Part shown: positions 29,659 to 34,578 of the stretch, one piece after another
Position numbering within the stretch: position 1 is the stretch's first letter
Layout: each line of letters begins with the position of its first letter
Assembly: GCA_030706735.1 (NCBI GenBank)
Contig: JAUZNZ010000010.1
Coordinates: 62,001-126,000 of the forward strand
Reading direction: 5' to 3'
DNA length: 64,000 nucleotides
DNA from: Bacteroidota bacterium
GTDB lineage: Bacteria > Bacteroidota > Bacteroidia > Chitinophagales > Chitinophagaceae
Notes under the pieces: generated by a model
Databases searched by the model: none
What the model saw: the letters and a program-made list of their open reading frames with translations, nothing else
What the model was told of the DNA's origin: nothing
Position numbers and translations under genes: made by a program

Positions 29659-29689
29659 TGCCAGGTATTTTAATAATTATAATGTATAG

Positions 29690-29719
29690 GCCCCGTTTAC
29701 GTCGTAAACGGGGCTTTTT
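29690..29719 (+). terminator. Rho-independent terminator after fusA
   Basis: GCCCCGTTTAC/GTAAACGGGGC, an 11-base-pair stem with the loop GTC, is followed by TTTTT. This is one of the strongest terminators in the window. Confidence 0.92.
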
Positions 29720-29856
29720 GATGGCTATATCGAATAAATCCCCGGAACAGCCCGTTATTAGAAAAACCGGTGGGACGGCAGGGCATAGGATTTGTATTCC
29801 ATGATTAAACTTTGGCTTCAGATGGATTTCAAAGAGGCAATTTTAAAATCAAGCAT

Positions 29857-30159
29857 ATGAAGAAACATCTCGTCAGATTGGCCATGGCATTCGGGATCAT
29901 CATGGCCATATCGTTTACCGCATCGGCTCAGATCTATGTAAATGTTCGCCCTACGCCTCCGGTGATCGTTCGTACGGCGCCCCCGAGCCCAAGGCATGTC
30001 TGGATTGGTGAAGAATGGGAAACGCGCAATGGGGTTTATGTGCACACCGGCGGTCACTGGGCGATGCCTCCCCATCCGGGATGGGTATGGATCCCCGGAC
30101 ATTGGGCGCATGCGCATAGAGGACATTATTGGATCCCCGGTCATTGGAGAAGAAGGTAG
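29857..30159 (+). CDS. Secreted YXWGXW / WXXGXW-repeat protein
   Basis: 100 residues. The signal peptide is MKKHLVRLAMAFGIIMAISF with probable cleavage after TASA. The mature part is short, proline-rich (VRPTPPVIVRTAPPSPR) and then dominated by tryptophan units: HVWIGEEW, GGHWAMPP, HPGWVWIPGHW and HYWIPGHWRRR. These match the small WXXGXW / YXWGXW repeat family of envelope proteins, whose function is unknown. The start at 29857 gives the signal peptide. It is flanked by two terminators, so it is its own transcription unit. It lies between fusA and rpsJ. Confidence 0.85.
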   Translation: MKKHLVRLAMAFGIIMAISFTASAQIYVNVRPTPPVIVRTAPPSPRHVWIGEEWETRNGVYVHTGGHWAMPPHPGWVWIPGHWAHAHRGHYWIPGHWRRR

Positions 30160-30186
30160 CAGAAGTTGATAGTTATTGAATGATAG

Positions 30187-30214
30187 GCCCGGTCGTTAAA
30201 CCGGGCTTTTTTTA
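30187..30214 (+). terminator. Rho-independent terminator after the W-rich gene
   Basis: GCCCGGT/ACCGGGC with the loop CGTTAA is followed by a run of eight T. Confidence 0.9.
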
Positions 30215-30275
30215 TTACGGACGGAGCGCCACTTAAGGAAGAATGTCCTAATTTCCGCGCCTAAACAGTAATCGT

Positions 30276-32501
30276 ATGCTCCTCTTTTCAGGTTCGGTCA
30301 ATCGTGGTCTTCAGGTGTCAGCTCCGATGTTCCTGCTCGTCATTTCCATGGCGGCCAGCGGTCAGCCGGGGGCCGGCCGGTTGAAATGGACAACGGAAGG
30401 CAATGCCTATTTTAAGATTGAAAACGGCGGGATAGACCGGATCGACCTGCCGGACCGCAAGGAGACGGTGATCGTCTCCAGGGAAATGCTCACGCCCGCC
30501 GGACAGACCAAGGCCCTTGGAGTGCGCAACTTTGCCTTCTCAAATGACGGAAAGAAACTGCTCATTTTCACGAACACCAAACGGGTATGGCGTTATAATA
30601 CCCGTGGGGACTACTGGGTGCTCGACCTGGAAAGCAAACAGCTGAAGCAATTGGGCAGGGACAGGCCCGCCTCTTCGCTCCTGTTCGCCAAGTTCTCACC
30701 GGACGGCAGCAAAGTGGCCTATGTGAGCGAGCACAATATTTACCTGGAAGAGCTGGCAGCCGGCCCTGGCGACGCCGTCAAATGCCTGACCTCGACCGAA
30801 GGCACGCGCAAGCTGATCAACGGCACCTTCGATTGGGTTTATGAAGAAGAGCTCGATTGCCGCGATGGTTTCCGTTGGAGCCCCGATGGCCGGCATATTG
30901 CGTATTGGCAGATCGACGCCAACAAGATCAGGGACTACCTGATGCTGAATACCACCGACTCCCTCTATCCCTTTGTTGTTCCCGTCGAATATCCGACCGT
31001 GGGCGAGGCCCCTTCCCCATATAAGATCGGGGTGGTCGATGTCGGGACCGGCACGACCAAATGGATGGACATTCCGGGCGATCCCAGGCAAACCTACCTT
31101 CCGCGCATGGAATGGGCGGACAATTCGTCCCAATTGATCCTGCAGCAGTTCAATCGCAAGCAAAATGACGGCAAGATCCTCCTGAGCGACGTCGCCACAG
31201 GCGCTACGACCCAACTCTATGAAGAACAGGACAGCGCATTCATCGAGTGCAAAGGAGCCTGGCAGGATGGGGTAGTGGCGGGATGGGACTGGCTGAACGG
31301 AGGCAAGGAATTTCTCTGGGTGACCGAAAAAGACGGATGGCGTCATATCTACCGGATTAGCCGGGATGGGAAAAAAGAGACCCTGGTCACGAAAGGGAAT
31401 TATGACATCATCACAGTCAGCCTGATCGACGAAAAGAATAACTACGTCTATTTCATAGCCAGCCCGGCCAATGCGACACAAAAATACCTGTTCCGCACCC
31501 GGCTGGACGGGAAAGGGAAATTGGAAAGACTGTCACCGGAGAACGAACCGGGAACGCATGAATACGACATTTCTCCCAATGGGCTTTACGCCATGCACGA
31601 TTTCAGCAATGCCAATACGGAAGATGCCCAGGAATGGGTCAGCCTGCCCGGTCATGCTCCCATCGGCAAGAGTGCCGATATCCCGGCCAAGGTCGCGGAA
31701 GGAGCCGCTAAGAAAAAAGTGAATTTCTTCACGGTGCATACCGCCGATGGCGTGGACATGGACGGTTGGATCGTGAAACCTGCGAATTTCGACAGTACGA
31801 AGAAATATCCGGTACTCTTCTTTGTTTATGGCGAACCCGCATCCCAGACCGTATTGGACCGGTATGGTAACGGCAATAATTTCCTGTATGCCGGCGAGTT
31901 GTCCAGGGATGGGTATATCTACATCAGCCTGGATAATCGTGGCACTCCGGCCCCCAAGGGCCGGGCCTGGAGGAAGGCCCTTTACCGTCATATCGGGCGC
32001 TTGAATATCCGGGACCAGGCCATGGCCGCCCGGGAGATCATGAAATGGCCTTTCGTGGACACCAGCCGCATTGCCGTGTGGGGCTGGAGCGGCGGCGCAG
32101 CCACTACCCTGAACCTGATGTTCCAATACCCGGAACTCTACAAGACCGGGATCGCGGTGGCCGCGATAACCGATCAGGTCACCTATGACAATATCTATGA
32201 GGAGCGTTATATGGGGCTGGTCACGGAAAATCCGGAAGATTATACGGCGGCCTCCCCCCTGACCTATGCCAAAAACCTGAGAGGCAATCTTTTATATATT
32301 CATGGCACGGGGGATGACAACGTGCACTACAAGAATGCCGAGCTATTGCTGAATGCCCTGATCAAGTACAACAAGGTGTTTCAGTTCATGGCCTATCCAA
32401 ACCGCTCGCATGGTATTTTTGAAGGGGAGGGGACCCGCCGGCATTTAAGCACCCTGTATACGGAATTCCTGAAACGGAACTGCCCCGGTGGCGGCCGATA
32501 G
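30276..32501 (+). CDS. S9-family dipeptidyl peptidase IV-like enzyme
   Basis: Exported serine exopeptidase that removes N-terminal dipeptides, often after proline. 741 residues. A hydrophobic export signal lies near residues 18-30 (MFLLVISMAASGQ), then a beta-propeller to about residue 480, then an alpha/beta-hydrolase domain. The catalytic triad reads as Ser605 in GWSGGA, Asp680 in GTGDDNVH and His712 in NRSHGI. YEEEL around 189-193 carries the double glutamate that binds the substrate N-terminus in DPP-IV. Bacteroidota use such enzymes in the periplasm to process imported peptides. The start at 30276 is the most upstream ATG that keeps the signal. It sits between fusA and rpsJ. Confidence 0.92.
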   Translation: MLLFSGSVNRGLQVSAPMFLLVISMAASGQPGAGRLKWTTEGNAYFKIENGGIDRIDLPDRKETVIVSREMLTPAGQTKALGVRNFAFSNDGKKLLIFTNTKRVWRYNTRGDYWVLDLESKQLKQLGRDRPASSLLFAKFSPDGSKVAYVSEHNIYLEELAAGPGDAVKCLTSTEGTRKLINGTFDWVYEEELDCRDGFRWSPDGRHIAYWQIDANKIRDYLMLNTTDSLYPFVVPVEYPTVGEAPSPYKIGVVDVGTGTTKWMDIPGDPRQTYLPRMEWADNSSQLILQQFNRKQNDGKILLSDVATGATTQLYEEQDSAFIECKGAWQDGVVAGWDWLNGGKEFLWVTEKDGWRHIYRISRDGKKETLVTKGNYDIITVSLIDEKNNYVYFIASPANATQKYLFRTRLDGKGKLERLSPENEPGTHEYDISPNGLYAMHDFSNANTEDAQEWVSLPGHAPIGKSADIPAKVAEGAAKKKVNFFTVHTADGVDMDGWIVKPANFDSTKKYPVLFFVYGEPASQTVLDRYGNGNNFLYAGELSRDGYIYISLDNRGTPAPKGRAWRKALYRHIGRLNIRDQAMAAREIMKWPFVDTSRIAVWGWSGGAATTLNLMFQYPELYKTGIAVAAITDQVTYDNIYEERYMGLVTENPEDYTAASPLTYAKNLRGNLLYIHGTGDDNVHYKNAELLLNALIKYNKVFQFMAYPNRSHGIFEGEGTRRHLSTLYTEFLKRNCPGGGR

Positions 32502-32585
32502 GCGGATCATGGACATGAGCCCGGGAAAATCAGGGGTTTGGGGAAAAAAGATCCATCGATTTTTGAGGAATTAAAAACTAACGCA

Positions 32586-32593
32586 TACCTTTG
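32586..32593 (+). promoter_or_regulatory. Promoter -7 element of the S10 cluster
   Basis: TACCTTTG matches TAnnTTTG, with TTTTG at 32561-32565 as a possible -33 element 20 bases upstream. It is 30 bases before rpsJ and probably drives the long ribosomal cluster to map. Confidence 0.75.
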
Positions 32594-32623
32594 CATCCCC
32601 GTTCGAAAAATGGGATTTGGCGT

Positions 32624-32929
32624 ATGTCTCAACGAATCAGAATCAAATTGCAGTCCTACGATCACAATCTGGTGGATAAATCCGCCGAAAAGATCGTAAA
32701 GACCGTTCGCAGCACCGGCGCTGTCGTCACCGGGCCGATACCTTTACCGACCAGGAAGAAGATCTTCACGGTACTGCGTTCCCCCCATGTCAACAAAAAG
32801 GCGCGCGAACAGTTCCAGTTGCACACGCACAAGCGGTTGCTGGACATTTATACTTCGTCGTCCCGCACGGTCGACGCATTGTCTAAGCTGGACCTGCCCT
32901 CCGGCGTGGATGTTGAGATCAAGGCATAG
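32624..32929 (+). CDS. rpsJ: 30S ribosomal protein S10
   Basis: Small-subunit head protein that also acts in antitermination with NusB in other bacteria. 101 residues starting [40 protein letters not shown] and [10 protein letters not shown] are the family motifs. The start at 32624 is preferred over an upstream TTG inside the promoter. It is the first gene of the S10 cluster, but 368 non-coding bases separate it from rplC. Confidence 0.97.
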
Positions 32930-33297
32930 CTCTTTATTTTTCCATCTGCAAACTCCCGATGGCCGGGCCGCGTCCTGAATGTGGCCGGGCCGGGGTAAAA
33001 CCCGGGATAAAGCAGCGCTGGAATTGAACTTAGTAAACCTCTTGTCCGGCTGGCGCCGGACAAGATACATATGAACAAGCCATTCAGGGTTTGTTTACTG
33101 CCGGTACTTCTGTGAGCCCCGGCCCGCGCAAGGCGGACGAACGGGCGAACGACAAGAAAAGGTCGGCTGCAAACGAAGGATCGAGATCATAGACCGCTGC
33201 CGCAGGGCAAGGACGCCAAAACGTCCGGCGAATGCCGCCCCGCGAGTAAGTCTATCTGGTTGTCCTTACACCCGAGAAGGCGTAAATCTTAAATGAA
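32930..33297 (+). promoter_or_regulatory. Candidate structured RNA in the rpsJ-rplC gap
   Basis: This 368-base stretch holds no convincing gene. Stems seen by hand: CCGGG/CCCGG near 32990-33005. A perfect ten-pair hairpin at 33041-33064 (loop TGGC) is closed by AGTAAAC/GTTTACT (33032-33038 and 33093-33099). GCCGG/CCGGC starts at 33100. A branched element is closed by ATAGAC/GTCTAT (33189-33194 and 33250-33255) and contains CGCAGGGC/GCCCCGCG (33201-33208 and 33237-33244), GGACG/CGTCC (33211-33226) and GGC/GCC (33227-33236). A small CCTT/AAGG hairpin (33264-33280) lies just before rplC. I see no tRNA, tmRNA, SRP or RNase P signature. Regulation of the downstream ribosomal genes is my inference. 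Confidence 0.55.
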
Positions 33298-33915
33298 ATG
33301 AAAGGCATTATTGGTAAGAAGCTCGGGATGACCAGCGTCTTCAGTCCTGACGGCAAGCAAACGGCTTGCACGATCATTGAAGCGGGTCCTTGCGTGGTCA
33401 CACAAGTGAAGACTAAGGATACCGACGGTTACACCTCCCATCAATTAGCATTTGGCGACAAAAAAGAGAAACACACTACGGCAGCCGCCAAGAATCACTT
33501 CGCCAAATCCAACACTTCTCCCAAACAGTTCGTAAAAGAGTTCCGCGATTTTTCCATAGAAAAGAATGCCGGCGACACCGTCACCGTCGAAATATTTTCC
33601 GAAGGTGAAAAGGTGGAAGTTGTGGGTACATCTAAAGGCAAGGGCTTTCAGGGCGTCGTAAAGCGTCATGGGTTCCATGGCGTCGGTGGACAGTCCCATG
33701 GTCAGCATGACCGTTCGCGTGCCCCGGGTTCGCTGGGCAACTCTTCGGACGCATCCCGCGTCATGAAGGGCGTTCGCATGGCAGGCCGCATGGGTGGGGA
33801 CCGGGTGAAGATCAAGAGCCTGAAAGTGGTCAAGATCTTCCCGGAAAAGAACTATATCCTGGTTGGCGGATCGGTGCCCGGTCATATTGGGTCCATTGTA
33901 TACATTCAGAAGTAA
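33298..33915 (+). CDS. rplC: 50S ribosomal protein L3
   Basis: Early 23S rRNA-binding protein near the peptidyl-transferase centre. 205 residues, starting [15 protein letters not shown]. The central loop [22 protein letters not shown] and the [24 protein letters not shown] segment are the L3 signature. It follows the structured rpsJ-rplC gap, and rplD begins 21 bases downstream. Confidence 0.98.
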
Positions 33916-33936: not shown

Positions 33937-34578
33937 ATGCAAGCAGACGTATTAACGATAAAAGGAAAAAAGACCGGCAGAAGCGTTGAACTGCCCGAGG
34001 AGATATTCGGGATCGAACCGAACGATCACGTGATCTATCTGGCCGTCAAATCCTACCTGGCCGCACAACGTCAGGGAACGCATAAAGTGAAGACCCGTAT
34101 GGAGGTGAAAGGTTCCAGCAAGAAGCTTCATCGGCAAAAGGGTACGGGAGGCAGTCGTAAAGGCAACCTGCGGAACCCTTTGTACAAAGGCGGCGGTACG
34201 ATCTTCGGCCCGAAGCCCCACGATTGGGATATTAAGCTGAATCGCAAGGTGAAGGACCTGGCCAAAATGTCTGCCCTGGCGCACAAGGCGAAAGGGAACT
34301 CCATCTTCGTCGTAGAAGACATCAAGCTGGATGCGCCGAAGACCAAGTCGTTTACCGATGCATTGAAGGATCTGAAAATGGATGGCAAAAAGGTGCTGTT
34401 CGTTTTGCCAGAGTATGACGACAACCTGTACCTGAGCCTGCGCAACCTGCCGTCCGTGCAGGGGATGCTGCTGGCCGATATCAATACCTATGACATCGTC
34501 AATGCCGACGTATTGCTGTTGTCGGAAACGGCTGCCAAAGTATTCTCTGAGGACGTTGCGGAAGAAGTAAAAGCATAA
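33937..34578 (+). CDS. rplD: 50S ribosomal protein L4
   Basis: Large-subunit assembly protein, and in E. coli the autoregulator of the S10 operon. 213 residues. The conserved extended loop is present: QRQGTHKVKTRMEVKGSSKK, KGTGGSRKGNLRNP and the FGPKPHDWDIKLNRKVK segment. The C-terminal half has VLFVLPEYDDNLYLSLRNL. L4 could be the partner of the structured RNA upstream of rplC, but that is only an analogy with E. coli. Confidence 0.97.
   Translation: MQADVLTIKGKKTGRSVELPEEIFGIEPNDHVIYLAVKSYLAAQRQGTHKVKTRMEVKGSSKKLHRQKGTGGSRKGNLRNPLYKGGGTIFGPKPHDWDIKLNRKVKDLAKMSALAHKAKGNSIFVVEDIKLDAPKTKSFTDALKDLKMDGKKVLFVLPEYDDNLYLSLRNLPSVQGMLLADINTYDIVNADVLLLSETAAKVFSEDVAEEVKA

Follow-up and report, generated by a model that had tools for sequence, protein, structure and literature searches.

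A conserved two-part RNA between rpsJ and rplC, a candidate ribosomal-protein leader in one family of Bacteroidota

The S10 operon of E. coli is regulated by uL4 from a structured 5' untranslated region, according to the parts of a 2024 review that are drawn on here (PMC10931766); the same parts describe control of the E. coli spc operon by uS8 at rplE, an internal cistron, and report that Bacteroidota make no use of Shine-Dalgarno pairing (PMC10931766). Members of this phylum must balance the synthesis of their ribosomal proteins without such pairing. In the portion of Eckert and Weinberg's paper used here (PMC7247131), ribosomal leaders of Bacteroidota are given for L13, S4, S15 and S16, and also for L19, and Table 1 includes a borderline L4 leader candidate from Archaeoglobi that precedes rplC, rplD, rplW, rplB and further genes, with L4 assigned as the ligand by prior knowledge. 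Within that portion, Table 1 holds no Bacteroidota leader for rplC (PMC7247131). Subscription papers and supplementary files aside, our literature search yielded no description of an rplC leader from Bacteroidota and, with the same scope, no account of feedback on their large S10 operon.

The window (the whole 64,000-nt stretch of DNA that was analysed) contains a gap of 368 nt between the end of rpsJ at 32929 and the start of rplC at 33298, exactly as a preliminary description of this DNA had claimed; the next five gaps, from rplC to rplV, measure 21, 23, 29, 12 and 1 nt, and no convincing open reading frame was found within the 368 nt. The gap strand folds with a minimum free energy (MFE) of -146.7 kcal/mol, compared with -123.4 +/- 5.8 kcal/mol for shuffled sequences (z -4.0; 0 of 100 shuffles as low). 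The element found there is a single copy in the window's own genome and consists of two parts, a hairpin (P1) and an added domain (P2, P3, P5 and P6) that lies between P1 and rplC. A terminator scan of 32500-33400 returned no terminator-like site. Further upstream, about 3 kb (29659-32623) separates fusA from rpsJ and holds a short open reading frame (29812-30159) and one of 741 aa that by eye resembles a peptidase of the DPP IV kind; rpsJ has a promoter-like site of its own at 32560-32593, which resembles what we take to be the Bacteroidota promoter consensus. At the other end of the gap, positions 33293-33301 read AUGAAAUGA, in which a reading frame of two codons ends with a stop that overlaps the start codon of rplC. 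The features are as follows.

32560..32593, + strand: promoter-like TTTTTG-N20-TACCTTTG, read in the sequence; likely drives rpsJ and the operon
32624..32929, + strand: rpsJ (uS10), the gene 5' of the element
32928..32935, + strand: 5' box AGCUCUUU, family form AG[UC]UCUU[UA]; overlaps the rpsJ stop codon in the window
32940..33023, + strand: P1 hairpin, from covariation, RNAalifold and the MFE fold; has a homologue in compact leaders
32940-32944 with 33019-33023, + strand: P1 outer helix, UUCCA/UGGAA
32945 opposite 33016-33018, + strand: P1 asymmetric internal loop, U opposite CGC; general form one base opposite C-K-C
32946-32949 with 33012-33015, + strand: P1 inner helix, CUGC/GCAG
32954-32958 with 33003-33007, + strand: P1 distal stem, UCCCG/CGGGA
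33024..33071, + strand: variable linker, not conserved; contains the ten-pair hairpin 33041-33064
33072..33097, + strand: P2 hairpin, UGAACAAGCC (AUUCAG) GGUUUGUUUA; near-invariant, loop NUUCNN
33098..33169, + strand: P3, CUGCCG (33098-33103) with CGGCUG (33164-33169)
33104-33107 with 33159-33163, + strand: P3 invariant internal loop, GUAC with AAGGU
33108-33111 with 33155-33158, + strand: P3 upper helix, UUCU/AGAA; encloses the variable P4
33176..33267, + strand: P5 proximal, AAGGA (33176-33180) with UCCUU (33263-33267); loop UCG opposite G33262
33189-33194 with 33250-33255, + strand: P5 distal, AUAGAC/GUCUAU; interior variable
33270..33286, + strand: predicted P6 and tail, CC (33272-33273) ... 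GG (33279-33280), then GGCGUAAA, directly before the start codon; from the tail alignment
33298..33915, + strand: rplC (uL3), the first gene 3' of the element
33937-34578, + strand: rplD (uL4), after rplC

Alignment of the relatives' gaps gave a core consensus of UGAACAAGCC-NUUCNN-GGUUUGUUUA followed by CURCYG-GUAC-UUCY ... RGAA-AAGGU-CRGYNG; in the window's own sequence P3 carries a U-U mismatch and is missing from the MFE fold. The complementary stretches that the preliminary description had drawn as nested stems were all present where looked up, but the fold as drawn is not conserved. Its ten-pair hairpin (33041-33064) falls in a variable stretch, and the AGTAAAC/GTTTACT stem supposed to close it is likewise not shared by most relatives, GTAAAC being found there in 6 of the 27 same-genus sequences and in 3 of the 102 others; GTTTACT (33093-33099) covers the end of P2, a near-invariant hairpin, and the first bases of P3. 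The branched element fared better in one respect, its ATAGAC/GTCTAT stem being the distal P5 stem, but its inner branches are private to this genome: GGACG/CGTCC is found in one of the 27 same-genus sequences, among which the window's own is counted. A two-state switch had also been suggested, in which AAGGAC (33209-33214) would pair with GTCCTT. Because the partner of TCCTT (33263-33267) is AAGGA at 33176-33180, and AAGGAC stands at the proposed place in one of the 27 same-genus sequences and in none of the 102 others, this switch is unsupported. The preliminary description had not picked up P1, the P2/P3 core or the 5' box.

The covariation test that the preliminary description proposed was carried out on 127 of 132 distinct gap sequences, each cut into helices, with an in-house re-implementation of the R-scape idea in which the substitutions of each column were redistributed over the rplC tree to give 200 null alignments; the five rows dropped were two that could not be segmented (L194 and L195), one with a mis-set rplC start (L095) and two with a short rplC. 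Nine helical pairs reached E below 0.05, four in P1 (2-15, 3-14, 9-6 and 10-5), two in its distal stem, the top pair of P3 and two in distal P5, so that P1, P3 and distal P5 are supported. The P1 pairs 9-6 and 10-5 are paired in 127/127 sequences and changed on both sides on 18 and 19 branches, respectively, and two further P3 pairs (4-12 and 5-11) have E = 0.075. The registers first tried for the distal stems of P1 and P5 failed, and the significant ones emerged from a scan of all pairs. The outermost P1 pair (1-16) is unsupported, with 39% of the 127 sequences paired. No significant covariation was found among these sequences for P2 or proximal P5, largely because both are nearly invariant: four of the five proximal P5 pairs are 97-100% paired and the outermost 55%, none of the five having an E below 1, and one A-U pair of P2 is replaced by U-A in 9 of the 127 sequences.

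Two further pairs with E < 0.05 are non-helical and join position 1 of the P2 loop with positions 6 and 5. Bases 1 and 6 of this loop (33082-33087) vary together as C...A versus R...G, and base 1 also covaries weakly (E = 0.08) with a base of the tail hairpin (33270-33286), so that a tertiary contact between the P2 loop and the tail hairpin is possible.

RNAalifold, unaided, predicted the same P1. On alignment A3, made from 56 of the 104 different short stretches of P1, 89.7% of the cells are paired compared with 70.4% after shuffling, the covariation score is 0.621 versus 0.263, and all slid versions of the structure remain below 45% paired. From 37 cores (alignment A1) the same program recovered both the P2 hairpin and P3, and at five pairs both bases are changed in one or more sequences; here 96.6% of the cells are paired, against 93.6% in shuffles and at most 54.1% in slid versions. 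For both P1 and the core, paired cells and covariation score exceed those of all 500 shuffles and all slides. Among the 127 sequences 28 of the 55 core columns are invariant, including the UUC loop and the GUAC/AAGGU internal loop, and mean identity is 0.85 in the core, 0.71 in P1 and 0.45 in the variable loops, with 0.84, 0.92 and 0.48 at rplC codon positions 1, 2 and 3. The gap holds a structured RNA, of two parts, that is conserved, covarying and fixed in position.

A DNA search gave matches in 28 of 33 same-genus genomes, and a covariance model of the core (R1), used for the genome searches, detected it, within the window's family, in 190 of 294 sampled genomes, spread over 64 of 95 genera; a subset of 30 weaker positives was recovered in full on a second search. 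All 70 matches among the 298 genomes of an order sample lie within the family, as do eleven of the 12 matches among 392 genomes of a phylum sample. The twelfth, a weak match in G878 (L168; E 2e-5), has no S10, uL3, uL4 or EF-G genes nearby and was attributed to chance. A subset of the core-negative family genomes, 24 in number, was searched again with laxer filters; weak matches appeared from E 0.0077 up, and none of the 19 that were fetched adjoins rpsJ or rplC, one (L212) adjoining an EF-G gene. One core per genome is the rule, with two matches in 2 of the 190 positives (G207 and G244). Located by the P2 pattern, the core is found between rpsJ and rplC, in the orientation of these genes, in 107/107 fetched family loci with a significant match (57 + 30 + 20, from 105 genomes). 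The named records with a core include Flavihumibacter, Sediminibacterium and Hydrotalea, and on the strength of the named records we take the family to be Chitinophagaceae, to which the element appears restricted as far as sampled.

This spread leaves next to no room for a strain-specific insertion, a degraded gene or a chance fold, the first two of which the preliminary description had named as fatal to its reading: the P5 interior and ten-pair hairpin of the window's copy are indeed lineage-specific, but the core recurs in 190/294 family genomes and covaries, and the gap contains no open reading frame of note.

A homologue of P1 is kept in genera that lack the core. A search of core-negative genomes located rplC in 28 of 29, preceded by rpsJ in 28/28 with gaps of 70-249 nt, and with 12 named loci whose uL3 is 71-76% identical to the window's, and which were taken as family members, these make up 40 compact loci. 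A strict P1 pattern, A-[1 nt]-C facing G-C-[GUA]-C-U with flanking helices and a score of 7 or more, was matched in 33 of the 40, each match being equalled by 0 or 1 of 200 mononucleotide shuffles; two of them (L256 and L262) have only two outer pairs and match in a register unlike that of alignment A2. The remaining seven (L010, L011, L018, L238, L247, L249 and L258) have by eye a P1 in which the closing pair is swapped or the loop differs, L011 being judged from its gap sequence. The strict pattern was found in 0 of 45 gaps from other Bacteroidota, many of which are too short to hold P1; a different scan, which dropped the C-G closing pair but required four pairs on each side, gave P1-like matches in 98 of 159 family loci and 4 of 58 others. 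Chitinophaga, Ferruginibacter, Taibaiella and Flavipsychrobacter are the named records with P1 only. P1 ends 12-17 nt before the rplC AUG in 28 of the 33 strict matches and 60-107 nt before it in the other five.

On an rplC protein tree of 181 rows, quickly built from the single gene and with 77 of 174 inner branches weak, the extended and compact states require two changes, and the extended state may have arisen once. P1 stands 107 nt before the rplC AUG in L254, L260 and L261 (genus g31) and 93 nt before it in L259 (g2). In the three g31 loci P1 is followed by ACAUAAAACAA, a GGGAUUG/UCCC-like or GAGAUUG/UCUC-like hairpin and UUGUAAUAA, a stretch that may be what is left of P2 and P5 in reduced form.

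The position, strand and partner genes of the element suggest cis control of the rplC operon. A cis-acting ribosomal-protein leader, one of the possibilities raised in the preliminary description, survives as the best reading of a conserved, covarying structure on the gene strand directly before rplC, and we assign a probability of roughly 0.68 to its being a leader that represses rplC translation and serves the rplC-rplD-rplW-rplB... portion of the S10 operon. Under this model an excess of a large-subunit protein encoded by the operon would bind the leader RNA and block initiation of rplC translation, and the later genes would be affected through coupling. The absence of a terminator-like site from the scanned region, together with compact P1 hairpins that adjoin the start codon, points to translation as the likely control step. 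P1, with its internal loop of one base opposite CKC, would be the ancestral binding hairpin, and in compact leaders it usually ends 12-17 nt before the AUG, which would place it within the footprint of the initiating 30S subunit. In the window's lineage, the near-invariant core of the extra domain would probably add a second contact and relay the signal to the start codon. The most likely ligand would be uL4, followed by uL3. Under the 'prior ligand' rule of Eckert and Weinberg (PMC7247131), uL4, the product of the second gene, would be the first candidate here, and under the 'closest gene' rule it would be uL3.

Ribosomal leaders often, although not obligatorily, mimic the rRNA site of their protein. 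Neither P1 nor the core gave convincing mimicry when compared with one rRNA locus of the family (L266): P2/P3 had no match there by profile or covariance model, and the P1 loop had three poor ones. The best match of the compact P1 profile lies upstream of 23S, presumably in 16S, and was equalled by 25 of 500 permuted profiles. A resemblance of compact P1 to the 23S uL4 site, seen first, ranked about 175th among the scanned positions and was discarded.

The added domain allows other readings of the leader. Tentatively, the leader could be a composite, in which an ancestral protein-binding P1, present across the sampled genera, was joined by a near-invariant P2-P3/P5/P6 domain placed downstream, perhaps once, as a second sensor. 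Such a leader would integrate two signals, the second not necessarily a ribosomal protein, in setting the translation of most ribosomal proteins. We consider it unlikely that the P2-P3 domain responds to an input other than a ribosomal protein (a metabolite, an ion or an assembly factor) behind an old P1, giving the operon two inputs. The 28 invariant core columns, with the UUC loop and GUAC/AAGGU among them, are in our judgement numerous for a leader that binds protein, and a small-molecule sensor would account for them as well; the presence of the core in 64 of 95 sampled genera, with P1 alone in other genera of the family, also speaks for this reading. Against this, no Rfam family matches, there is neither a terminator nor a clear expression platform, and riboswitches usually control several kinds of gene, whereas significant matches here precede rplC only.

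The Rfam search suggested in the preliminary description produced no known family: at the gathering threshold, Rfam 15 matched only a tRNA elsewhere in the window, and below it the gap gave four matches, the lowest E being 0.67, far below gathering. Among 20 relatives the only match to Rfam 15 was the DUF805b RNA, which lies outside the rpsJ-rplC gap (L252:2964-2999, minus strand).

The preliminary description had also entertained a separate small RNA. In a broader form, such an RNA, or an element at the boundary of rpsJ and rplC that affects processing or stability, would tune the ratio of uS10 to the other proteins without sensing anything, and we regard this as distinctly improbable. A conserved box does sit exactly at the 5' edge, where the conservation of the element begins with AG[UC]UCUU[UA]: of 129 extended sequences, 112 have G[UC]UCUU in the 70 nt that precede P1 (2.9 in shuffles), and of 40 compact gaps 31 have it at some place (1.3 in shuffles). 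Inspection by eye showed no consistent pairing between the box and other parts of the element. An internal promoter at the box was considered and rejected, since neither TTG nor TTTG recurs at a set spacing upstream and a -33 TTG is not conserved there. In L193, L196, L197, L198, L233, L236 and L237 the rpsJ stop is followed, ahead of the box, by a hairpin and T-run that by eye resemble an intrinsic terminator and would part rpsJ from the rplC operon; their presence in at least seven loci raises the question of an internal promoter, and the one locus put through the terminator scan (L196) did not have this site on its list. These features would suit a distinct transcript or a processing site, but the window's region has no terminator-like site, and the element is linked to rplC in all 107 fetched loci, with P1 adjoining the AUG at 12-17 nt in most compact forms.

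Control of rplC by attenuation through a short leader peptide (AUGAACAAGCC..., possibly MNKPF...) is highly improbable: an AUG stands at the start of P2 in 48 of 127 sequences, the window's included, but UA or AA replaces UG in the other 79, P3 changes follow base pairing, and the P2 loop of L104, otherwise of six bases, carries a one-base deletion. The absent AUG and this deletion led us to reject the peptide.

Returning to the ribosomal-protein leader, the locus offers a defined RNA and a natural series, P1 alone and P1 plus domain, in which ligand binding and control of the start site are directly testable, and its leader differs by a whole domain between related genera with its place in the operon unchanged. 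Like the E. coli S10 leader, the element is a structured RNA on S10 operon genes that include rplC and rplD, with feedback by a ribosomal protein likely. It differs in lying between rpsJ and rplC, whereas the leader of E. coli type precedes the first gene, rpsJ, and has an attenuation terminator, of which none was found here in 32500-33400; no Rfam family matches the element. The spc operon of E. coli is alike in position, its uS8 control point also falling inside a string of ribosomal genes, with a different protein and a different site, as far as the review parts used here describe it. The Archaeoglobi L4 candidate, as given in the part of Table 1 used here, shares the place before rplC and the gene order but is archaeal and likened by position alone. 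The L13, S4, S15, S16 and L19 leaders of Bacteroidota, again from that portion of the paper, come from the same phylum and have the same kinds of evidence (covariation and constant position), but belong to other operons, and their structures were compared by Rfam scans only. With a structure backed by covariation and a place upstream of rplC on the same strand in 107/107 fetched loci, as is characteristic of ribosomal leaders, the element is best classed as a candidate for a new type of ribosomal leader, the added domain being what is unusual about it.
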